DNA of 27,354 nt from a virus. Location of the stretch: the IMG/VR virus record IMGVR_UViG_3300042261_001362, positions 1 through 27,354 of that record; one strand, given 5' to 3'. Under the pieces are notes generated by a model that saw nothing but the letters and a program-made list of their open reading frames with translations, was not told the origin of the DNA and made no database searches. Every line of letters begins with the position of its first letter. Positions within the stretch are counted from its first letter, which is position 1. A program made the position numbers and the translations under genes. Positions 10,852 to 27,354 of this stretch are shown in pieces.

Positions 10852-12063
10852 ATGGCAAAGAACACACACCTCGAACATTTAGAAGACGACATCCTGAATC
10901 AGGGATCTCAGGGAGGAATGAATGCGATTGCATTTCTCCGTGAATTGGGAAATTTTTTATATCGTCAAAGATCTAATGTTACCATTACAACCAAGTGGGA
11001 CGGTGCTCCTGCAGTTGTTTGTGGAAAAGATCCAGAAACTGGTAAATTTTTTGTGGGAACAAAATCTGTATTTGCAAAAACTGAACCTAAGATTTGTTTT
11101 ACTCAAGATGATATCACTAAGTTTTATGGTGAAGAAGGTCAACTGGCACAAAAACTTAGAAAGTGTTTGGAACTTTTGCGTTATCTAAACATTGAAGGTG
11201 TTCTTCAGGGTGATTTACTTTTTACTAATGATAAAGTTCAGAGAGTTATCAATGGTGAAAATCTAATTACGTTTAGACCTAATACAATTACTTATGCCGT
11301 TCCAACGGGTTCTAATCTTGGTAAAGAAATTGACAATGCTGATTTGGGAATTGTTTTTCATACTCGTTATACTGGACCGTCAATTTCTGAGATGTCAGCA
11401 AGTTTTGGTGTCAATGTAGATACGCTAACGAAAACACCTTCTGTTGCAGTATTTTCGTCTACATTTAAAGATGCCAGTGGAGTTGCTACTTTTGATCCTG
11501 TGCAATATAGAAACTATATTGCTGCAGTAAATCGTGCAGAGGGTTCTCTTCGCCAAGCATCTGCTTTTCTTGATGTTCTTCGTGAAACGGGAACTTCTAA
11601 GTTTATGATGGCAACATTGTTTAAACAGTATTTTAATACCTACATTAAAAGTGGTGAGGGTGTGAGAAATACTCGGGATGTTGCCAGCAATTTTGCAAGA
11701 TATTATATCCAACTTTTGGATAAAGAAATTATGTCAAAAAAGACAAAATCGGCACAAGATAAATACCTACAAATGAAGAAAGAAGGTCTTGCTTTCATTA
11801 GCAAAAATGATAATGCCATTTATATGACAGTGGCATCTTATATTAACCTTCAGACTGCAAAGAAGATGATCATTAATCAATTAGCAAAGGTTAATACTTT
11901 GGGAACTTTCCTTCAGACCGATGATGGTTTTAAGGTAACTGCACCAGAAGGGTTTGTTGCTATTAAAGATGGTGCGGCACTAAAACTCGTAGATAGGTTA
12001 GAATTCAGTAGAGCAAACTTTACTATTGCTAAGAATTGGGATAGGGGAGATACAAAAGAATGA
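10852..12063 (+). CDS. Polynucleotide-ligase-like nucleotidyltransferase
   Basis: The 403-aa protein shows the ordered motifs of the covalent nucleotidyltransferase (DNA/RNA ligase, capping enzyme) superfamily. Motif I is K48-W-D-G51 in TTKWDGAPAVV, where Lys would be adenylated. A motif Ia-like FFVGTKSVF and a motif III-like GVLQGDLLF (120-124) follow. Motif IV is EGFV (366-369) and motif V KLVD (378-381). The family start HLEHLEDDIL is, as I recall, conserved in T4-like marine phages without a known function. The insert between motifs III and IV is long and helical, unlike T4 Rnl1 or gp30. Its stop overlaps the next gene (ATGA), coupling it to another nucleotidyltransferase. Ligase activity is inference; a protein AMPylase or a degenerate enzyme is possible. 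Confidence 0.75.
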   Translation: MAKNTHLEHLEDDILNQGSQGGMNAIAFLRELGNFLYRQRSNVTITTKWDGAPAVVCGKDPETGKFFVGTKSVFAKTEPKICFTQDDITKFYGEEGQLAQKLRKCLELLRYLNIEGVLQGDLLFTNDKVQRVINGENLITFRPNTITYAVPTGSNLGKEIDNADLGIVFHTRYTGPSISEMSASFGVNVDTLTKTPSVAVFSSTFKDASGVATFDPVQYRNYIAAVNRAEGSLRQASAFLDVLRETGTSKFMMATLFKQYFNTYIKSGEGVRNTRDVASNFARYYIQLLDKEIMSKKTKSAQDKYLQMKKEGLAFISKNDNAIYMTVASYINLQTAKKMIINQLAKVNTLGTFLQTDDGFKVTAPEGFVAIKDGAALKLVDRLEFSRANFTIAKNWDRGDTKE

Positions 12064-13385
12064 AAAAATTCTTTACATTTTTACAGGAAGCAGTTTCTAG
12101 TCAAGCAGTCCAACAAGCAACCCGTATGGGATTGCAAAGTGATGGGCACGGAGGGTGGTATAAAGATGGTGAGTTTGTTGCAAAGACTGTAAAAGGAAAG
12201 TTAGTATTTTATAATAAAAGACAATCTGTAGGTGGCAAAGATCCTGCACAAACACCAAAAGAAAAAAATATTTCTGATCCAAACTTTGCAGATCCTGCAC
12301 TTCAACAACAGCAAGTATCTGCACAAGCACCTGTAGATCCAAATGCACAAATAGATCCTGCTACAGGTCAACCTGTTCAGGCAGCACCTCCTCCACCACC
12401 AATTCCTGTTCCCCCACCTGTAGAAAAAACAAAAGGAACTCTAACAATTGCTTTTGGTAGATTTAATCCTCCAACTGTTGGTCATCAACAGTTGATGGAC
12501 ACTGTTGCCAGTGCTGCTGGAGAGGAAGATTTTCTAATCGTTCCTTCTCGTAGTCAAGATAAGAAAAAAAATCCTCTTGATGCTGATACAAAAATTGCTT
12601 ATATGCAAAAAATGTTTCCCCAATACGCTGGAAATATTGTAAACGATCCTAATACAAGAACTATTTTTGATGTTTTAAAGAAGGCACATAACGATGGTTA
12701 TGCAAATATCAGAATCGTTGGTGGCGCAGACAGAGTTAAAGAATTTGATAAATTAGCAAATAATTATAATGGATCGTTGTATCAGTTTGATGGCATTGAA
12801 GTTGTTTCTGCTGGAGACAGAGATCCTGATGCGGAAGGTATTGAGGGAATGTCTGCATCCAAGTTGAGACTTGCTGCATCTGAAGGTGATTTTCTAACAT
12901 TTAGAGGTGGTCTTCCCGATACATTGAGTCGTAAAGAAGCATTAGAACTTTTCTATAACATTAGAAACTCTATGGGAATTAAAGAGGGTGTTGAGGTTTG
13001 GGAAATCGCACCAAAGTTTGATGCTCAAACTTTAAGAGAAAATTACTTGAGTGAAACTATTTTTAGAATAGGATGTTTTGTAGAAAACTTAAATACTGGA
13101 CTTGTTGGACGTATTATTCGTAGAGGTACAAATTATTTGATTTGTGTTACTGAAGATAATATTATGTTTAAGTCTTGGATTAAGGATGTTTCAGAAGCAT
13201 ACACTGAAAAGAAAATGGAAAGAATAATGAGAGATAAAAAACATCCAAATACATTAGTTGGAACTGGTGGATATTTTAAGTATGCACTGAAACAAACTCC
13301 AGGATCTGATATGGGTTCTGATAACCTTGCATCAGGTCAAACTTCATATATCAAAAAATTCCTAAATAAGTATAGGAAAAAGTAA
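12060..13385 (+). CDS. HIGH-type nucleotidyltransferase with capsid-targeting-like N-terminus
   Basis: Four parts are visible in the 441 residues. (1) Residues 1-10, MKKFFTFLQE, then A: the shape of the T4 capsid-targeting peptide cut by gp21 after (L/I)-x-E. (2) A small module, GLQSDGHGGWYKDGEFVAK. (3) A Pro/Gln-rich linker (about 80-123). (4) A nucleotidyltransferase domain of the NMNAT/cytidylyltransferase class: GRFNPPTVGH (133-142), VGGADR (220-225) and SASKLR (265-270). The C-terminal part (FRIGCFVENLNTGLVGRIIRRGTNYL) looks like a small beta domain known from other cyanophage virion-type proteins. It is coupled to the ligase-like gene upstream. Substrate (NMN, CTP-alcohol or other) cannot be told; head packaging is inferred. 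Confidence 0.82.
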   Translation: MKKFFTFLQEAVSSQAVQQATRMGLQSDGHGGWYKDGEFVAKTVKGKLVFYNKRQSVGGKDPAQTPKEKNISDPNFADPALQQQQVSAQAPVDPNAQIDPATGQPVQAAPPPPPIPVPPPVEKTKGTLTIAFGRFNPPTVGHQQLMDTVASAAGEEDFLIVPSRSQDKKKNPLDADTKIAYMQKMFPQYAGNIVNDPNTRTIFDVLKKAHNDGYANIRIVGGADRVKEFDKLANNYNGSLYQFDGIEVVSAGDRDPDAEGIEGMSASKLRLAASEGDFLTFRGGLPDTLSRKEALELFYNIRNSMGIKEGVEVWEIAPKFDAQTLRENYLSETIFRIGCFVENLNTGLVGRIIRRGTNYLICVTEDNIMFKSWIKDVSEAYTEKKMERIMRDKKHPNTLVGTGGYFKYALKQTPGSDMGSDNLASGQTSYIKKFLNKYRKK

Positions 13386-13403: not shown

Positions 13404-14879
13404 ATGAGTAAAAATATTTTTGAGGAATTACCTTCCCGTAAAGGCACTCCAATTGAAGCGCGTTCAGAAGCACGTCCACAACCTAAGGGTGATGGTGAAG
13501 AGCGCGAAGGAAAGAAAGGAGCAGGTGCTTCTGATGTGGAGCAAGGTGCTGATCCAAAAGCAAAATCGGATAAGCGTATTCGTCAAGCAGTCTATGACAT
13601 CCGTTATCGTGCTAGAAGAGAAGATATTACTCTTGGTCAAGCAGTATCACAATACTTATCTAATAGTAAGTTAACCCCACAGGAACAAGCTGCTGTTAAA
13701 GCGCAGCTCAAGGAAGAGTATGAAGTATCAGAAATGATTTCTGATGCTACAGCAAATGCTCTTTATAGAGTATTTGTTATGAATGAAAAAGAAGAAGTTA
13801 ATCCTTCTCAAGAATATATTGAAGAATTAAAGGCAACTCCAGAAAGGAAGTATCACGTTAGAGTTACGGATAAAAATACTGGAAAGACTTATTATAGATA
13901 TGCAACTCGTGAAAAAATCAATCAACTCAGAGCAAATCCAAATATTCGCTCAGTTGAGATGTTGGATAAGATGCAAGCAACATATGGTAAACCACCATAT
14001 GAGGGTGAGAAGAAGCGTGGAGAACAAACTGCAAGAGTAAAGGCAGGTAAGGGACTTGATCCTGTAGGGCAGGAAGATAAAGATATTGATAATGATGGTG
14101 ATCATGACAAGAATGATAAGTATCTTCTGAATCGTCGTAAGAAAATCGGTAACGCAATTGCAACTCGTAAAGAAGATTTTATTTGGCAAGAAGAGACAAC
14201 CAGCACTGAAGGTCAAAACGCAAAAAAGATTACTGGAAAGGGAGTAGATAACTACTCTACAGGTGTTGTAAAAGTATCACCAAATGAAGATTCTGGAGTC
14301 AAAAAAGAAGAATATTCTTCATCTGGTTTAAGAAGATTTCATTCTGCACTTCAGTTTGAAGCAACTATGACTTCTGCTGAAAAGAAAGAAGAGGGTAAAC
14401 TAAAAAAGAAGTATGATCCTTCTGGTATGAAGGCATCGATGAAAAAGCAGTATGGTGAAAAGAAAGGTAAGCAAGTTTACTTTGCTACCATCCGTAAGCA
14501 AGCAATGCAAAATGCTCACTACGAATTCGAAGACGGTACTCTTCTTGATGAAATGGGAATGCCTATTTTGGGTGTAGTTAAGAAAGATGATGAACCAAAA
14601 CTCAAAAAGAGTGAAGGTGGATGTGAAGATTCTAGAGAAATTCCAACCAAAATGAATTTGGTTAAGAATAAGTTCCGTGCTATGGGACTAAAAATGTCTT
14701 ATGAACCAAATGGAACTACAATTTCTGAAAGAGAATTTGATGAACCAGGTGAGGAAGATTGGAGACCAGATGTTCGTGCTCATAATAGAGCAGTAGGATA
14801 TAAACCTTATAAAAGAGGAACTCGTCGCCCAAGACCAGAAAATCCAGGTCCAGGATCTCAAGCAAAACCTGCCGATTGA
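13404..14879 (+). CDS. Charged virion-type protein with EF-hand-like loop
   Basis: 491-aa highly charged protein, probably a virion or prohead component. Order of features: a Lys/Glu/Gly-rich N-terminus; a helical region (KRIRQAVYDIRYRARREDI, residues near 57-75); a VRVTDKNTGKTYYRYATREK strand block; an acidic loop D227-I-D-N-D-G-D-H-D-K-N-D238 fitting the 12-residue EF-hand/dockerin calcium pattern; YGEKKGKQVYFATIRKQA; then NAHYEFEDGTLLDE (370-383). The last two blocks recur in the 588-aa protein at 21358. The C-terminus is Pro/Arg-rich. Its stop codon overlaps a late promoter. No enzymatic motif seen. Confidence 0.8.
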   Translation: MSKNIFEELPSRKGTPIEARSEARPQPKGDGEEREGKKGAGASDVEQGADPKAKSDKRIRQAVYDIRYRARREDITLGQAVSQYLSNSKLTPQEQAAVKAQLKEEYEVSEMISDATANALYRVFVMNEKEEVNPSQEYIEELKATPERKYHVRVTDKNTGKTYYRYATREKINQLRANPNIRSVEMLDKMQATYGKPPYEGEKKRGEQTARVKAGKGLDPVGQEDKDIDNDGDHDKNDKYLLNRRKKIGNAIATRKEDFIWQEETTSTEGQNAKKITGKGVDNYSTGVVKVSPNEDSGVKKEEYSSSGLRRFHSALQFEATMTSAEKKEEGKLKKKYDPSGMKASMKKQYGEKKGKQVYFATIRKQAMQNAHYEFEDGTLLDEMGMPILGVVKKDDEPKLKKSEGGCEDSREIPTKMNLVKNKFRAMGLKMSYEPNGTTISEREFDEPGEEDWRPDVRAHNRAVGYKPYKRGTRRPRPENPGPGSQAKPAD

Positions 14880-15748: not shown

Positions 15749-16120
15749 ATGAGATTTGATGAGTTGAATGAAAATAACTATTTGTTATTTGCTATAAAAT
15801 TCTATGACAATCCACAATCTCTTACTAGAGAAGATTTTGAGGATGATTTGAAACGTTTTAAATATGTCAAAAGACTTTTAAAACGTTATAAAAATACTGG
15901 TGTTTTGAAGACTCATCTCATCTTAAATCATCTTACAGTTTTGTTTAATGTATTTGATGATGCAGCAGTTCCTCTGTTATTTTATAATTTGGAATCTGAT
16001 CTTTGGCCAGCAATAAAAAGTTTTTTACTTTTTTTGCATAGAATACCAGAGTTTCCTCGAAGTGGTATTCACGATATTATAGAAGATGATTATTGTCTGA
16101 CACAACTTCAACAAATCTAA
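15749..16120 (+). CDS. Conserved T4-like phage protein, 123 aa
   Basis: All-helical small protein: NYLLFAIKFYDNPQSLTRED, FEDDLKRFKYVKRLLKRYKN, LKTHLILNHLTVLFNVFD, and a hydrophobic C-terminal region. I recall this pattern (Y-D-N-P near the start, L-K-R-F-K-Y-x-K-R-L, L-I-L-N-H-L) as widely conserved in T4-like marine phages with unknown function. Its stop shares a base with the next start (TAATG). It sits in a late, probably structural or head-related string. Confidence 0.83.
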   Translation: MRFDELNENNYLLFAIKFYDNPQSLTREDFEDDLKRFKYVKRLLKRYKNTGVLKTHLILNHLTVLFNVFDDAAVPLLFYNLESDLWPAIKSFLLFLHRIPEFPRSGIHDIIEDDYCLTQLQQI

Positions 16121-16338
16121 TGAACATCGATAAAATTATTTCTATTGTTAGAGATTTAAAAGAAGAAGCGATAGCAGCACCAACTAATTCTGTTGGTGGT
16201 GGTCAGATTGCTGGTACAAAAGAAGCAGGTGATGATCCACCTGTTGACTTGAGAAGAGGTAAAAGAAGAAATTGGAATCCATTTTTTAAAGACCTTGTAA
16301 GAAGGAATAGAAAAAAGAAAAAGAAAAGGGGAGGATGA
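16120..16338 (+). CDS. Basic 72-aa protein with VGGGQIAG motif
   Basis: Coupled to the preceding gene by TAATG; the frame is open from 16093, but the coupled ATG is preferred. The N-terminal helix (MNIDKIISIVRDLKEEA) is followed by PTNSVGGGQIAGTKEAGDDP and an Arg/Lys-rich tail ending RNRKKKKKRGG. The Asn/Gly-rich segment is similar to motifs I recall in cyanophage head proteins. The basic tail may bind DNA or an acidic partner. Function not established. Confidence 0.78.
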   Translation: MNIDKIISIVRDLKEEAIAAPTNSVGGGQIAGTKEAGDDPPVDLRRGKRRNWNPFFKDLVRRNRKKKKKRGG

Positions 16339-21357: not shown

Positions 21358-23124
21358 ATGTCTAGACTTACAGGTAGTGAAGTTGCTAATTTGATGCAGG
21401 CATATAGTGCTGTTCATAACAATAATCTTCGTGAAGAGATTCTTTTCGAAGAGTTTTTAACTGAAGAGTTTATTCTTGAGGCTTATCAGTACGTTGCCGA
21501 TTTTCTTGTAGCAGAAGGGCACGTTCCTGGTTATGAGACTGCCGAACTCTTTATGGCAGAAATGGATGAGCATTGGATTGATGAAATCCTCTGTGATTAT
21601 GGTCTGTATCTGAATGAAGGTCCATTTAGTAATTTTGCTAATACTGTAGTTGGTGGTGTAAAGAGAGCAGGTTCTGCTGTTGCTGGTGGTGTAAGAAGAG
21701 CTGCTGGCGCTGCTGATAGAGGAGTTGCTGCTGCTGGATCTGCTGTTAGAACTGCTGGACAAGTTGCTACAGGAGCAGCACAAAGAGCAGGTTCTGCTGT
21801 TGCTGGAGCAGGTAGAGCAGCTGCTGGGGCAGCACAAAGAGCAGGGCAGACTGCAGTTGGCGCAGCACAAAGAGCAGGTGGAGCAGTTGCTAGAGCAGCA
21901 ACTCCTGTTGCTCAGGCAGTGAAAGGAACCGCTCAGAGAGCAGTTGCTGCTGGTCAAAGTGCTCTTGGATCTGCTGGAAGAGCGGTTCAGGGTGCTGGAC
22001 AAGCAGTAGTGGGAGGAGCACAAAGAGCTGGTGCTGCCGTTGCTGGCGCTGCCCAAGGTGCTGCTCGTAGAGTTGGTCAAGAAATTGAGATTTCAAGAAG
22101 AGTTGGTGCTGGTCAACCTATCGGTGGAACTCCTGCAAAAGTAGCACCTAAAGCAGCGGGTGGAACTGCTGCAACTAAACCAGCACCTCAACAACGTGTT
22201 ATGAGAGATGGTTCTGCAGCAGGAAAACCCGCTGCCGCTCCTGCTGCTAGACCTGCCGCTGCTGCTCCTGCCGCGGCCCCTGCTGCTAAACCCGCTGCAG
22301 CTACTCCTGCTCCTGCTCCTGCTGCTGCAGCACCTGCTAAGAGACAATCTCTTGCTTCACAAGCAGCAGAACTTCGCCAAATGAGAGCAGCATCACAAGC
22401 AAGACAAGGTGTGGTTAATGCACATTATGAAGTAGAAGGTGATTTGATTGATGAAACAACTTTATCAGCAAAGGCAGCAAGAGCAGGTAAAGATATTGGT
22501 AAACCTGGAAAGCAATTTGCAAAAATTGCTAAAGAAGCAGGTGAGCGTTATGGTTCTGAAGAACGTGGTAAGAAAGTTGCTGGCGCTGTTTTAGCAAAAA
22601 TGAGAGCAAAGGCAAATCTTGCAAATTCTTATGAAGCAGAAGGTGAAGATATTCACGAAATTCCTCTAGTAGTTGCTGCACCTTTAGCAGCTGGCGCACT
22701 TTATGCTGCTGGCAAAGGTATGGAAGCAATGAAGAAAAAAGTAGATGCAAAAATTGATAGAGCGAGAAAAACTTCTCCAATTGGTGGTGATAGAAGAGTT
22801 CCTCAAATGAATTCATATCAACCAGATAATTTTGATTTCATTCTTGAGTATCTTGTTGCTGAAGGACACGCTGATACTAATGAGCAAGCAATTGCTCTGA
22901 TGGCAAATCTTACTCCTGATCAAATTCAGGGTATTATTGAAAATTCTGATGAGGATTCAGCCAGAAAAAGATATAACGCATTGGGTGGTGATGCTAATGC
23001 AAAACGACTTGGAGTAGTGGATAGTAGTGGAAGAGTTCTCAGTCCCGATGAAGCTTCAGCCAGAAAAAGATATAACGCATTGGGTGGTGATGCTAATGCA
23101 AAACGACTTGGAGTGGTAAAATAA
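21358..23124 (+). CDS. Ala-rich low-complexity virion-type protein, 588 aa
   Basis: Probably an internal head or other virion protein. N-terminus MSRLTGSEVANLMQAYSAV, then a helical module with FLVAEGH (about 42-81). Residues about 100-245 are Ala/Gly/Arg 11-residue-type repeats (RAGQTAVGAAQ and relatives) with an Arg roughly every 11-15 residues. Next comes a Pro/Ala/Lys stretch (about 255-330) resembling histone H1 or AlgP tails. The C-terminal part holds NAHYEVEGDLIDE (354-366), YGSEERGKKVAGAVLAK, NSYEAEGEDIHE (423-434), a second AEGH module (491-530) and a duplicated 20-residue end. Several (L/I)-x-E sites could be cut by the prohead protease (inference). Own late promoter; terminators on both sides. 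Confidence 0.82.
   Translation: MSRLTGSEVANLMQAYSAVHNNNLREEILFEEFLTEEFILEAYQYVADFLVAEGHVPGYETAELFMAEMDEHWIDEILCDYGLYLNEGPFSNFANTVVGGVKRAGSAVAGGVRRAAGAADRGVAAAGSAVRTAGQVATGAAQRAGSAVAGAGRAAAGAAQRAGQTAVGAAQRAGGAVARAATPVAQAVKGTAQRAVAAGQSALGSAGRAVQGAGQAVVGGAQRAGAAVAGAAQGAARRVGQEIEISRRVGAGQPIGGTPAKVAPKAAGGTAATKPAPQQRVMRDGSAAGKPAAAPAARPAAAAPAAAPAAKPAAATPAPAPAAAAPAKRQSLASQAAELRQMRAASQARQGVVNAHYEVEGDLIDETTLSAKAARAGKDIGKPGKQFAKIAKEAGERYGSEERGKKVAGAVLAKMRAKANLANSYEAEGEDIHEIPLVVAAPLAAGALYAAGKGMEAMKKKVDAKIDRARKTSPIGGDRRVPQMNSYQPDNFDFILEYLVAEGHADTNEQAIALMANLTPDQIQGIIENSDEDSARKRYNALGGDANAKRLGVVDSSGRVLSPDEASARKRYNALGGDANAKRLGVVK
21661..22080 (+). repeat. Ala/Gly/Arg 11-residue-type coding repeats
   Basis: Degenerate in-frame repeats built on GCACAAAGAGCAGG-type units (GAAQRAG in protein). 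Units are 11 residues or multiples and variants of that, with an Arg roughly at each unit start. Diverged at DNA level, so old compared with the 60-bp repeat further on. Confidence 0.8.
22956..23114 (+). repeat. Perfect 60-bp direct repeat
   Basis: 22956-23015 and 23055-23114 are identical at all 60 positions by eye, offset by 99 bp (33 codons). Both copies are in frame at the C-terminus of the 588-aa protein and encode SARKRYNALGG followed by DANAKRLGV. Confidence 0.93.
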
Positions 23125-23210: not shown

Positions 23211-25664
23211 ATGTCAAGTTTTAACTTAGAGGATATTTCGTATCTTTACGAACACATTGCGACTCAAGATCAATCATCGCTTGATGAAACTTCAGATTAT
23301 TATGACGAAGAACTTGCAAATCTTGTTGAGGATATTTTCTCAACGATTGCATATAATATGATTGCGAGTGGTCATACTGCTGAGGGAGTTGTTGGGTTTC
23401 TAACGAATTCTTCCGAAACAGATATTCTCGAATACTATATGAACCCTCCTGTGATTTCTGAGGGCACAGTTTCTGAAGAGCATATCGAAACGGAACTCGC
23501 AAGACTTGATGAAGGTCTTGGTGGAATAGTAAGCGGATTAAAACTTCTTGGTAAGGGTGCAATGAAAGCAGTTGCTCCTGCCGCAAGAACTGCTAAAGTT
23601 GCACTCAAAAGAGCTGCTGGTCCTGGTGTTAGAAAGGCACTCGGTGGTGCAGTAGGTAAAGTAAAAGATATTGCTGCAAAAGTTGCACCAAAACTTCCTG
23701 GAATTGCAAAAGGTGCTCTCGCTTTAGGTGCTGGAGTTGGAGCTGGATATCTAGGTGCAAAACTTACTGGCGGCGGCGCTGGCAAATCCAAGGATCAACC
23801 AGGAACTAGTGGTCCTCAAACAGTAGCAGCTGCTGGTGGTAAAGGTGGCAAAGTTACCGTTGGTAAAGAATATGATGCTGTTCTAGGTGGTAAAAAAGGA
23901 AAAGTAACTTACTCACAGTCGGGTGAAAAGTTCTTTAAGCAAACTGAGAAAGGTACTCCTGCTTCACCATCTACCCCATCAGGTTCTGGTTCTGGTGCTG
24001 GAACACCACCATCGAAACCACCTAAATCGCAAAAACCAACAAAACCAGTAAGTCAATTATCACCTGGTGGTAGAAAAGGTAACGAGGAATTAGAAGGGAA
24101 AACTTTCCCAACAAGAAAAACTGCAGGTGGAACTGAATATGAAGTAAGAACTCCAACCAGAGCAGAAATGGAAGCATCTAAAGCTGCTGGTGGTGGTGAA
24201 GCAGGAGTAAAGGCTGCTGCAGAAAGAGGTAGCAAATTAATGGGTGGTCCAGAAGGTCCTGGACAAATTGATACAAAATCAGTAGAAGCAGATATTAAAG
24301 CAGCACAAGAAAGAGATAAAAGAAAAGCAGAACAAAAAGCTTCAGAATCATCTACTAAAAAAGAATCATATGATGCTTTTGATGTAGTTCTTGATTATCT
24401 TTTTGAGACCAATCAAGTTGATACTCTTGCAGAGGCATCTTATGTAATGATGGAAATGGATTCTGATGTAATCCAGTCTATTGTTCTAGAGCAAGCTGGA
24501 TATCTTGCTGATGAATATAATTTTATTGTTGAGGGTCTTATTGCTGAAGGGTATGATTTGTCTGAGTATACTGAAGACGAATTTATTGATATTCTTATTG
24601 CTGAGAATATCTTACCAGCATTAGGTAAACTAATTGTTGGTATTAATAAGGCAAGAGGGGCGGTTTCCGCAGCTGCTAAGAGTCCAGCGACTAAGCAATT
24701 AGGCAAAACTCTAAAAAAAGCAGCATCAGATTTTGGTAAGGGATTTAAAGGAACTGGTAAAGGTGGAGCACTTGTTAAGTCTCCTGGTGGAGCGATGACA
24801 AAGGCAGGAAAACCTGGAGCACTTGTTAAGTCTCCTTCTGGCGCTTTAACATCAGGTGCAAAACCTGGAAAAATGGTTGATGCATCCATTAAACCAGTAA
24901 ATGTTAGTGTTGTTGGTGGTGGAGCAAAAGGTGCAGGCGGTCGTGCTGCGGCAGCAGCTGCTCCTGCTGGTGGAGGTGGTGGAGGAGCAGCTGCTGGTGG
25001 ATCTGCTGGAGGTGGTAGAGGTGGAGCAATCGTTCCATCACCTGGTGGCAAAATGACCACAACTGGTGGTAAGAGTGGTGCTTTAGTTGCTGGTACTACT
25101 GCAACTGGAGTTGCTAAAGCAGCAAAAGGTGCTGCTGCAGCACTTGGTAAAGGTGGTGGAGGTGGTAGAAAAGCACTTCTCGCTGCAGGACTTTTAGGTG
25201 CTGGTGCCTTAGGTGCTGGTATGCTTGCTGCAGGTGTTGCTGGTAAGAAAGAAGCTCCAAGAAGAAAAGAAGCACTCGTTGGTTCTCAGAACGCCAAAAA
25301 ACCACTGACTGCAACTCCAGAGAATATGAAAACCGCTGCAAATGTAAATAAGCAAGGTGGTATTGCTCTAGGTAAAGGTGGACTTGGTTATCTTGCTAAA
25401 AAAGGTGACAAAATGGTTATTAAACAAGCAAAAGCAGTTGGTGCAGACGATGGAATCATCGGTAAGGCAGCACGTGCGCTTGGTTTAACTAAAGCAAAAG
25501 ATAAGGCGATTGAGGCACAAAGACAGGCAGCAGGACGTAAGAACAGAGAGGCATATCTCTCTGGACAAGAACTAACTGATAAGAATATTACTGGTTATCA
25601 AGTAAAAGGTGCCAAGAGAAAGGGTGAAGTAACAGGAACAAAAATTAAAATGGATAATAAGTGA
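23211..25664 (+). CDS. Gly/Ala-rich virion-type protein, 817 aa
   Basis: Large repetitive protein sharing design with the 588-aa neighbour. It has an acidic N-terminus (SFNLEDISYLYEHIATQ) and an AEGH-type module (42-80). A basic amphipathic stretch (LKLLGKGAMKAVAPAARTAK) follows, then a Gly-zipper-like hydrophobic segment (164-187). A Pro/Ser/Gly/Lys linker leads to two adjacent modules (389-428 and 435-466). The SPGGAMTK/SPSGALTS repeats come next, then a poly-Gly/Ala region, a second Gly-zipper segment (655-678) and a Lys-rich end. The hydrophobic Gly-zippers could insert in membranes or pack as helices. No catalytic motif seen. Own late promoter. Confidence 0.8.
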   Translation: MSSFNLEDISYLYEHIATQDQSSLDETSDYYDEELANLVEDIFSTIAYNMIASGHTAEGVVGFLTNSSETDILEYYMNPPVISEGTVSEEHIETELARLDEGLGGIVSGLKLLGKGAMKAVAPAARTAKVALKRAAGPGVRKALGGAVGKVKDIAAKVAPKLPGIAKGALALGAGVGAGYLGAKLTGGGAGKSKDQPGTSGPQTVAAAGGKGGKVTVGKEYDAVLGGKKGKVTYSQSGEKFFKQTEKGTPASPSTPSGSGSGAGTPPSKPPKSQKPTKPVSQLSPGGRKGNEELEGKTFPTRKTAGGTEYEVRTPTRAEMEASKAAGGGEAGVKAAAERGSKLMGGPEGPGQIDTKSVEADIKAAQERDKRKAEQKASESSTKKESYDAFDVVLDYLFETNQVDTLAEASYVMMEMDSDVIQSIVLEQAGYLADEYNFIVEGLIAEGYDLSEYTEDEFIDILIAENILPALGKLIVGINKARGAVSAAAKSPATKQLGKTLKKAASDFGKGFKGTGKGGALVKSPGGAMTKAGKPGALVKSPSGALTSGAKPGKMVDASIKPVNVSVVGGGAKGAGGRAAAAAAPAGGGGGGAAAGGSAGGGRGGAIVPSPGGKMTTTGGKSGALVAGTTATGVAKAAKGAAAALGKGGGGGRKALLAAGLLGAGALGAGMLAAGVAGKKEAPRRKEALVGSQNAKKPLTATPENMKTAANVNKQGGIALGKGGLGYLAKKGDKMVIKQAKAVGADDGIIGKAARALGLTKAKDKAIEAQRQAAGRKNREAYLSGQELTDKNITGYQVKGAKRKGEVTGTKIKMDNK
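24765..24836 (+). repeat. 21-bp direct repeat in the 817-aa gene
   Basis: The 21-nt unit GGAGCACTTGTTAAGTCTCC plus T occurs at 24765-24785 and 24816-24836, 51 bp (17 codons) apart, encoding GALVKSP twice. A diverged third relative encodes GGAIVPSPGG near 25021. Confidence 0.85.
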
Positions 25665-26224: not shown

Positions 26225-26390
26225 TTGGGCACTTGATCGAATTCATTTTCTGTGTGAAAACAAAGATTATGAAGACGCATACTCAATTCGAATTGAGTTT
26301 TGTGAGTGGTTAAACCCTGATATTGAAGAACATGATATTGTTTCACTAGAGTACATAGGAGAAGAAGAAGATGACCCTAGATCTTCATAA
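26187..26390 (+). CDS. 67-aa acidic protein
   Basis: ATG preceded by AAAGGA with good spacing; overlaps the endonuclease end by 38 nt and the peptidase start by 20 nt. The product is helical and acidic: MQTLETTLKQSHDWALDRIH, then NKDYEDAYSIRIEFCEWLNP and an EEEDD-rich end. The central part looks like a short helical-repeat (TPR-like) hairpin, but one unit is too little to assign. Function unknown. Confidence 0.78.
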   Translation: MQTLETTLKQSHDWALDRIHFLCENKDYEDAYSIRIEFCEWLNPDIEEHDIVSLEYIGEEEDDPRSS

Positions 26391-27042
26391 CTTTTTTAAA
26401 TTTTATGATGAAAATAATGAGAATCACGTAGCAGCAGTCCAATGGTTGGAAGATAAACTTCCAGAAAAATTCCTAGATGACGCAGAGACTGACTGGATTG
26501 GTATTTTCAGAACAAAACCCCCAACTCCAGAAGTTCTTGCTGTTCCATATTTTAACCAAGTAGACAACTACAGAGATGCACATAGAACTTGCAATAGTTC
26601 ATCGTGCGCCATGTGCCTTGCGTTCCTTAAGCCAGGAAGCATCAAAGGCGACGATGAATATGTCAAGAAAGTATTTGCGATTGGTGACACGACTGACCAT
26701 GCGGTACAGACCAAAGTTCTCGCAGGTTATGGAGTTAAGTCACACTTTAGTTACAATCTTTCTTTTGCTGATATTGATAAAAGTCTTGACGCTGGGAAAC
26801 CTGTCGTTATTGGTATTCTCCACCGTGGTTCTCTATCTGCACCTACTGGTGGGCACATGTGTGTTGTAATCGGCAAGACCCCAGATGGCAAAGGATACTA
26901 TGTAAATGATCCATATGGTTCATTAAATGATAATTATACTGGTCCTGTAACTAACGGTAAGAAGACAATTTATACCAAGGCAGTTCTCAAGCATCGTTGG
27001 TGTCCAGGAGGTAATGATGGGTGGGGAAGGATCTTCGACTGA
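26371..27042 (+). CDS. C39-like cysteine peptidase with N-terminal LHNFF module
   Basis: The 223-aa protein has two parts. Residues 4-47 form a module (DLHNFFKFYDENNENHVAAV, then QWLEDKLP) that reappears in the gene at 27150. Residues about 55-223 look like a papain-fold peptidase of the C39_2 type: VPYFNQVDNYRDAHRTC with probable nucleophile C74, GGHMCVVIGK with H162, and YYVNDPYG with D180. Such domains cut peptides or cell-wall cross-links; a virion-associated or lysis role is plausible. No signal peptide. AGGAGAAGAAG precedes the start. Confidence 0.82.
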   Translation: MTLDLHNFFKFYDENNENHVAAVQWLEDKLPEKFLDDAETDWIGIFRTKPPTPEVLAVPYFNQVDNYRDAHRTCNSSSCAMCLAFLKPGSIKGDDEYVKKVFAIGDTTDHAVQTKVLAGYGVKSHFSYNLSFADIDKSLDAGKPVVIGILHRGSLSAPTGGHMCVVIGKTPDGKGYYVNDPYGSLNDNYTGPVTNGKKTIYTKAVLKHRWCPGGNDGWGRIFD

Positions 27043-27163
27043 GTTTAAGAAAAAAATTCTGGAAGAAGTGAAGAAACTCACAAATCACGGTAAACATAAA
27101 GAAGCAAGTGAATTATTCAACATATACTTTCCAAATATAGGAGGCAACAATGGCAAAAATTGA
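27017..27163 (+). CDS. 48-aa protein bridging two genes
   Basis: A reading frame with AGGAGG just upstream overlaps the peptidase end by 26 nt and the next start by 14 nt. The product MGGEGSSTEFKKKILEEVKK continues with LTNHGKHKEASELFNIYFPN and a Gly/Asn tail: one helical hairpin. Translation is supported by the ribosome-binding site and packing only. An in-frame ATG at 27014 is too close to the site. Confidence 0.55.
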   Translation: MGGEGSSTEFKKKILEEVKKLTNHGKHKEASELFNIYFPNIGGNNGKN

Positions 27164-27354
27164 TTTACACAACTTCTTCAAGTTTTATGACGAGAAGAAT
27201 CCCAACCACGTCAAAGCAGTTCAGTGGTTAGAAGATAATCTTCCTGTTGATTATCTTGGTGATAATGTAGAGTGGGCAGAGATTTATCGCGGAAAAAAGA
27301 CTAGTGCTGCACCAGCCCCTGCCGCTGCTGCAGCTCCTGTAACTGGTGGTGATG
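27150..27354 (+). CDS. Partial: second LHNFF-module protein
   Basis: Starts at ATG with TAGGAGG 5 nt upstream and runs off the window. The first residues (MAKIDLHNFFKFYDEKNPNH, then VKAVQWLEDNLP) are closely similar to the N-terminus of the C39-like peptidase. An Ala/Pro linker follows (SAAPAPAAAAAPVTGGD). A catalytic or binding domain probably follows beyond the window; its nature cannot be seen here. Confidence 0.88.
   Translation, partial: MAKIDLHNFFKFYDEKNPNHVKAVQWLEDNLPVDYLGDNVEWAEIYRGKKTSAAPAPAAAAAPVTGGD

Follow-up and report, generated by a model that had tools for sequence, protein, structure and literature searches.

A probable T4-type capsid-targeting tag on the adenylyltransferase-like virion enzyme of marine T4-related phages: a candidate for delivery with the DNA

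Background

For the internal proteins (IPs) of phage T4 the signal for entry into the head has been mapped: IPIII needs its first ten residues to be packaged, targeting depends chiefly on residues 4 and 7 and processing by the gp21 protease on residues 8 and 10, and gp21 cleaves after L/I-x-E (PMC9026906, a review of work from the Black laboratory). The IPs are small proteins, one of which, IPI, inhibits the GmrSD restriction enzyme. Propeptides of T4-type internal head proteins with such a signal are 10-19 residues long. T4 also has an enzyme with NAD-linked chemistry that is head-packaged, gp21-processed and injected, the ADP-ribosyltransferase Alt.

The cyanophage core gene T4-GC190 (PMC3037559) encodes a protein that has been called 'cytitidyltransferase' or NMNAT and has been detected in the virions of S-SM1 (PMC3037559), S-SCSM1 (ORF91; PMC9602691), S-CREM2 (ORF154; PMC10665884) and S-SZBM1 (S-SZBM1_140, with 2 peptides and 13.5% coverage; PMC9146016); in S-PM2 virions it went undetected (PMC3037559). 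Virion association of the enzyme is thus already known (it was published in 2010), and what the present analysis adds is an N-terminal tag. The portions consulted of these reports describe virion presence, and no account of a targeting tag or of a cleavage site was found in them; nor, in the portions consulted of the cyanophage literature, was a protein bearing a capsid targeting sequence (CTS) found reported for the abundant marine myoviruses. A literature search on prohead-protease cleavage in cyanophages returned no title or abstract dealing with the enzyme described here.

The gene and its product

The window, an entire IMG/VR fragment of 27,354 nucleotides whose nearest named relatives are Kyanoviridae (S-SRM01, S-SKS1 and P-SSM2, for example), encodes an orthologue of these virion proteins that is 46% identical, over the full length, to S-SCSM1 ORF91 (Table 1). 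The start of the ORF is secure, since the closest in-frame stop ends at 12044, 5 codons upstream, and none of the intervening codons is a start; that stop and the Shine-Dalgarno-like run together rule out a wrongly chosen start codon. Translation of codons 12060-12092 gives MKKFFTFLQE/A for residues 1-11 (the slash, here and below, marks the predicted cut). S-WAM2-like phages and S-PM2 encode the small C-terminal domain in a gene of its own.

Table 1. Features of the window at and around the adenylyltransferase gene
Feature	Position	Strand	Basis
DUF6267, overlapping upstream gene	10852..12063	+	Probable RNA-ligase-like fold (model); KxDG motif
Shine-Dalgarno-like run GGGGAG	12045..12050	+	Sequence, 5' of the ORF start codon
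ORF, NMNAT-like adenylyltransferase, 441 aa	12060..13385	+	S-SCSM1 homologue called NMNAT and flagged as virion protein
CTS-like propeptide MKKFFTFLQE, residues 1-10	12060..12089	+	Targeting F4, F7; processing L8, E10
Ala11, predicted P1' position; predicted mature N-terminus AVSSQA...	12090..12092	+	A in 56/66 distinct homologue N-termini
Accessory N-terminal module, residues about 14-55	12099..12224	+	phrog_3561 match, 2-55
Low-complexity Gln/Pro/Ala linker, residues 56-124	12225..12431	+	Sequence; low model pLDDT
Adenylyltransferase domain, HIGH/nucleotidylyltransferase fold, residues 125-308	12432..12983	+	PF01467; pLDDT about 90; PPAT/NadM/NadD matches, Z 12-14
Catalytic motif FGRFNPPTVGH, residues 132-142	12453..12485	+	F132, G133, R134, P137, P138, G141, H142 invariant in 57 sequences
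Second catalytic motif SASKLR, residues 265-270	12852..12869	+	S265, R270 invariant in 57 sequences
Possible second gp21-like site GIKE/G in interdomain linker, residues 306-310	12975..12989	+	Weak; 58/75 homologues
C-terminal small all-beta domain (KOW/SH3-like by inspection), residues 321-380	13020..13199	+	phrog_4808 match
Downstream gene	13404..14879	+	Same position as the genes of S-SCSM1 ORF92 and S-SZBM1_139, virion proteins detected by MS

The tag and its T4 counterparts

With T4 IPII and IPIII the window enzyme shares a ten-residue N-terminal tag of the form M-K-x-(F/Y)-x-x-F-(L/I)-x-E before A, the functional positions being equal: F4 and F7 stand at the targeting positions, and LQE/A (residues 8-11) reads as a gp21-type site. 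IPI shares only the core of the tag. How readily might such a match arise by chance? The pattern was scanned against 255 T4 and 282 S-SCSM1 proteins, with expectations drawn from the column frequencies of these 537 real N-termini. At 4.4e-6 per protein, the probability of the full pattern MK.[FY]..F[LI].E[AGST] rejects a chance match and corresponds to 0.0024 expected among the 537; the only three found are T4 IPII, T4 IPIII and the S-SCSM1 NMNAT. The likeness to the T4 internal-protein tag that had been noticed at the start of the protein is thereby confirmed. The core MK.[FY]..F by itself is matched by 6 proteins (0.65 expected), all three T4 internal proteins included: IPI, IPII, IPIII and 61.1 (4/255) in T4, and ORF30 and ORF91, the NMNAT, (2/282) in S-SCSM1. 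The looser criterion of an LxE near the N-terminus is unspecific (17/255 T4 and 11/282 S-SCSM1 proteins).

ORF30 of S-SCSM1 (L084 44215-44535), a hypothetical protein of 106 aa that starts MKTFKQFMSE/S and is encoded between two MS-detected virion genes, is, by its N-terminus, a candidate for a further tagged head protein.

Both settings are those of a T4-type phage with a gp21-type protease (for the window, judged from its relatives). The cargoes differ: where the T4 IPs are small, that of the window is a predicted enzyme of 441 aa and, unlike the IPs, has an extra 55-aa module behind its tag. As a proposed head-delivered enzyme with NAD-linked chemistry it resembles Alt; however, the N-terminus of Alt (MELITELFDE) is unlike the tag, and Alt consumes NAD, whereas the window enzyme would produce NAD or a related dinucleotide.

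Conservation of the tag and its absence

A set of 165 homologues reduces to 66 distinct N-terminal 16-mers. Conserved among these are K2 (66/66), F4 (65/66), F7 (66/66), L/I8 (63/66), E10 (65/66) and A11 (56/66), while positions 3, 5, 6, 9, 12 and 13 are variable; the conserved positions coincide with those mapped for targeting and processing in T4 IPIII. Codons vary synonymously at some of the conserved sites, an indication of selection at the peptide level. The tag is found in 80/80 window-like loci (one of them with an insertion that shifts the LxE site), in 80/80 S-RIM2-like loci and, as a nine-residue version ending [IL]xE/A or VxE/A, in 68/68 Melnitz-like loci. That it is a mere part of the 55-aa module can be rejected: the enzymes of S-CREM2 (MKNFSSFLTE/A), S-SZBM1 (MRFRQFIIE/A) and Melnitz-2 (MKKFSEIIE/A) keep the tag without the module, as do those of the Melnitz-like phages generally (68/68 loci). 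In phage C48C1 (L095 3016) the cytidyltransferase has been annotated with too late a start; an upstream in-frame GTG adds the beginning of the first catalytic motif and a tag, MIKNFSQYLLE/EEREVYFTFGRMNPP, in which the residue after the cut site is E.

The module (residues about 14-55) also stands behind a like tag, SLLSFLSE/A, in an unrelated ACG-2014f protein of 953 aa. This protein (Syn7803US44_186; L348 3989-6850) carries the annotation 'cytitidyltransferase', has nothing but the tag and the 55-aa module in common with the NMNAT, and is without a Pfam match; its gene sits between genes annotated as DNA adenine methylase, and an HNH-like DHV...N stretch can be made out by eye.

Conservation of the N-terminus among homologues, proposed as a check in the original prediction, holds for most lineages and fails in some: the enzyme is untagged in S-WAM2-like phages (25/25 checked), P-HM2, S-PM2, RaK2 and Paride, and the tag is not universal. 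The existence of untagged homologues implies that packaging is a trait of lineages, that delivery by way of the head is not intrinsic to this enzyme family, and that the enzyme can work without being injected. The split-off C-terminal domain of the S-WAM2-like phages starts MKDFKKLREE/A or REQ/A; given the Q variant, a gp21-type site there is doubtful. In S-PM2 the enzyme domain (p142; L347 4099-5271) forms one protein with the C-terminal part of DUF6267, which is split over p141 and p142.

Presence in virions and the predicted cut

Tag and detection go together in the five phages compared, the enzymes of S-SM1, S-SCSM1, S-SZBM1 and S-CREM2 being tagged and detected and that of S-PM2 untagged and undetected, an agreement that is suggestive only. 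The authors of the S-SCSM1 and S-CREM2 studies allow for carry-over or co-purification of a highly expressed protein (PMC9602691, PMC10665884); for repeated detections put down until now to packaging or carry-over, the conserved tag offers a specific packaging mechanism. The packaging of the enzyme in the capsid, as originally predicted, has come to be strongly supported, with the mapped CTS positions matched, the tag conserved independently of the rest of the protein, and tagged homologues found in purified virions in four separate studies. Judged from its sequence, the window enzyme appears to be a T4-style CTS cargo, and this is well supported as far as packaging goes; trimming, ejection and NAD chemistry are what we infer beyond it.

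The 27-kb fragment is devoid of head genes. Its relatives S-SCSM1 and S-SM1 encode a gp21-type prohead protease, and the gp23 proteins of these two phages have sites of like form (FLAE/A and ILTE/T, respectively, located by inspection rather than by experiment). The suggestion of gp21 trimming stands to this extent, at the level of sequence, and the mature N-terminus is a prediction; a gp21-type cut after E10 of the window enzyme seems quite likely from the form of the site. The tag in this way yields a one-residue prediction. For S-SCSM1 the predicted N-terminal peptides are EAAESGASVQAK with trypsin alone and AAESGASVQAK after a gp21-type cut; for S-SZBM1 the peptide predicted after such a cut is AVAAAAK.

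The enzyme

The adenylyltransferase domain is matched by PF01467 (33.3 bits against a gathering score of 21; residues 125-308) and by PHROG 395, and has motifs of the HIGH-superfamily types G-x-F-x-P-x-x-x-G-H and S-x-S-x-x-R, whose key residues are invariant in 57 sequences. An AlphaFold2 model built from 57 sequences has its structural matches among phosphopantetheine, NMN and NaMN adenylyltransferases (Z 14.1 to 12.4; with PPAT at 14.1, NadD at 13.0 and NadM at 12.8, differences of about 1 count as ties); by sequence, there is no solved homologue of the enzyme at E 0.01. On the model, the domain is of the adenylyltransferase type, with the NMNAT/PPAT fold and its motifs intact. The best NCBIfam match, nadR_NMN_Atrans, lies far under its cut-off, and the curated NMNAT cut-offs are not reached (TIGR01526, 22.8 against 341.15 bits; TIGR00482, 22.4 against 112.45). 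For the enzyme earlier called NMNAT/cytidylyltransferase-like, the Pfam family and an adenylyltransferase-type fold are supported, and NMNAT is not established by the family models. The signatures GRFNPP and NPL..K are, by inspection, ones that we take to resemble NadM/NadR rather than PPAT.

In phage NAD+ salvage by NadV with NadM/NadR, a HIGH-fold adenylyltransferase is likewise proposed to restore NAD+, with NadV as its usual partner (PMC9503650). In contrast, a NadV/NAMPT partner (PF04095) is absent from 7/7 related phage records in which the controls were positive (the window's own genome is incomplete), and the window enzyme is seen without a Nudix or kinase domain. With zero partners in seven related phages, NadV-based salvage is unsupported; the enzyme would have to draw on NMN or NaMN of the host.

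Packaging, delivery and reaction: a proposal and its alternatives

One can put these elements together as follows. Residues 1-10 would act as a CTS of the T4 type, in which F4 and F7 dock the enzyme onto the scaffold core of the prohead (the match of positions is seen, and the docking is supposed from it). During prohead maturation a gp21-type protease would cut after L-x-E10, at the site that is seen, to leave the mature enzyme beginning AVSSQA, and this would be retained in the head with the DNA, as the published finding of tagged homologues in purified virions suggests for the window phage also. By analogy with the T4 IPs and Alt, the enzyme would then be ejected into the cyanobacterium, there to act as a nucleotidyltransferase, most likely an adenylyltransferase, and to replenish NAD+ ahead of phage gene expression. 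Packaging through the tag is very likely. Ejection into the host, for which T4 provides the analogy, is the more probable outcome, though with ample room for doubt, and the same can be said for the chain of steps as a whole, in which an active enzyme, its substrate left unnamed, is packaged, trimmed and delivered.

The N-terminal peptide might, alternatively, target the prohead while the protein works there as scaffold or as an internal part of the structure, or otherwise stays in the head, and is never delivered. Targeting and virion detection alone do not show ejection, and the small C-terminal domain and 55-residue module could have binding roles; catalytic motifs invariant in 57 sequences, however, would be superfluous for a structural role, and the T4 IPs and Alt, which are loaded through core-targeting propeptides, are ejected (PMC9026906). 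Such a head-bound fate is unlikely. More improbable still is an ordinary amphipathic helix, for dimerization or partner binding, on a cytoplasmic phage enzyme that contaminates virions by carry-over. The model does make residues 4-12 helical, with an i, i+3, i+4 hydrophobic pattern that would fit any amphipathic N-terminal helix, and the proteomics authors' caution about carry-over weighs on the same side, as do the few peptides (2) from S-SZBM1. Helix packing leaves the conservation of E10 and A11 unexplained, however; the tag persists without the adjacent module in three phages, the pattern is matched almost exclusively by T4 internal proteins, and detection has been repeated in four phages in separate studies.

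And if the enzyme is indeed packaged and delivered, is NMN its substrate? NMNAT activity (NMN + ATP -> NAD+) would be the single most likely reaction, at roughly even chances. A HIGH-fold adenylyl- or cytidylyltransferase whose substrate is some other small molecule, or which joins the neighbouring DUF6267 in acting on RNA ends, falls a little short of that; it is a variant of the proposal given above and compatible with its packaging part. It gains from PPAT matches equal to or slightly better than those of NadM and NadD, from NMNAT family scores far below cut-off, from the lack of NadV in related phages, and from the RNA-ligase-like fold of DUF6267, which is both the neighbour and, in S-PM2, the fusion partner. 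Against it stand the signatures nearer to NadM/NadR than to PPAT and the identity of the best NCBIfam match.

The tag also provides a searchable signature of head-delivered cargo in abundant marine myoviruses. It is a tentative thought, on the doubtful side of even, that marine T4-like phages load enzymes into their heads by means of an exchangeable capsid-targeting cassette (a 10-residue CTS with or without the 55-residue module), and that these enzymes constitute an injected kit acting on nucleotides and nucleic acids before phage gene expression; the cargo would comprise the NAD-type adenylyltransferase, the ligase-fold DUF6267 (in some lineages) and the unrelated large ACG-2014f protein encoded between two DNA adenine methylases.

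Neighbouring genes

The invariant residues of DUF6267, K48-x-D50-G51, E366-G367 and K378, lie in KxDG, EG and K-x-V-x-R motifs. The best structural matches of its model are Naegleria RNA ligase (Z 8.7), T. brucei REL1 (7.8) and T4 Rnl2 (7.5), above unrelated entries; a Z near 8 is only moderate, and Foldseek alone gives no significant match. An RNA-ligase-fold protein is probable on the strength of the model. The single low-E match by sequence, to a designed helical fusion (E 0.0005), falls largely within the helical insert of DUF6267 and is likely an artefact. DUF6267 itself has a CTS-like N-terminus in Melnitz-like phages and C48C1 (for example MINFSSYLTE/D and MMLDFKNFITE/Q). These starts, and the MS detection of counterparts of the downstream gene, suggest, without proving, that the gp41-gp61 stretch holds several head-delivered proteins.

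Close to the gene of the gp61 primase lie genes for small proteins that imitate the N-arm of gp23 about the gp21 cleavage site. T4 61.1, which has a CTS-like start, MKTFKEFIKE, scores 82 against gp23 (shuffles reach at most 50, the next-best T4 protein 53), and S-SCSM1 ORF97, which is MS-detected, scores 83 with the gp23 of its own phage (next-best protein 42); in the window copy (16093-16338, +) the mimicry is weaker (score 43; 2/500 shuffles). Farther along, 21358-23124 and 23211-25664 (both +) encode large Ala/Gly/Lys-rich proteins with several internal L/I-x-E/A/G/S/T sites (the first slash separating L from I, the second marking the cut, the rest separating alternatives) and recurring 'YLxAEG'-type segments. 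At the end of the window (26371-27354, +) two ORFs, the final complete one (26371-27042) and a partial one behind it, begin near-identically, LHNFFKFYDE.N..HV.AVQWLED, and are likely a tandem duplication.
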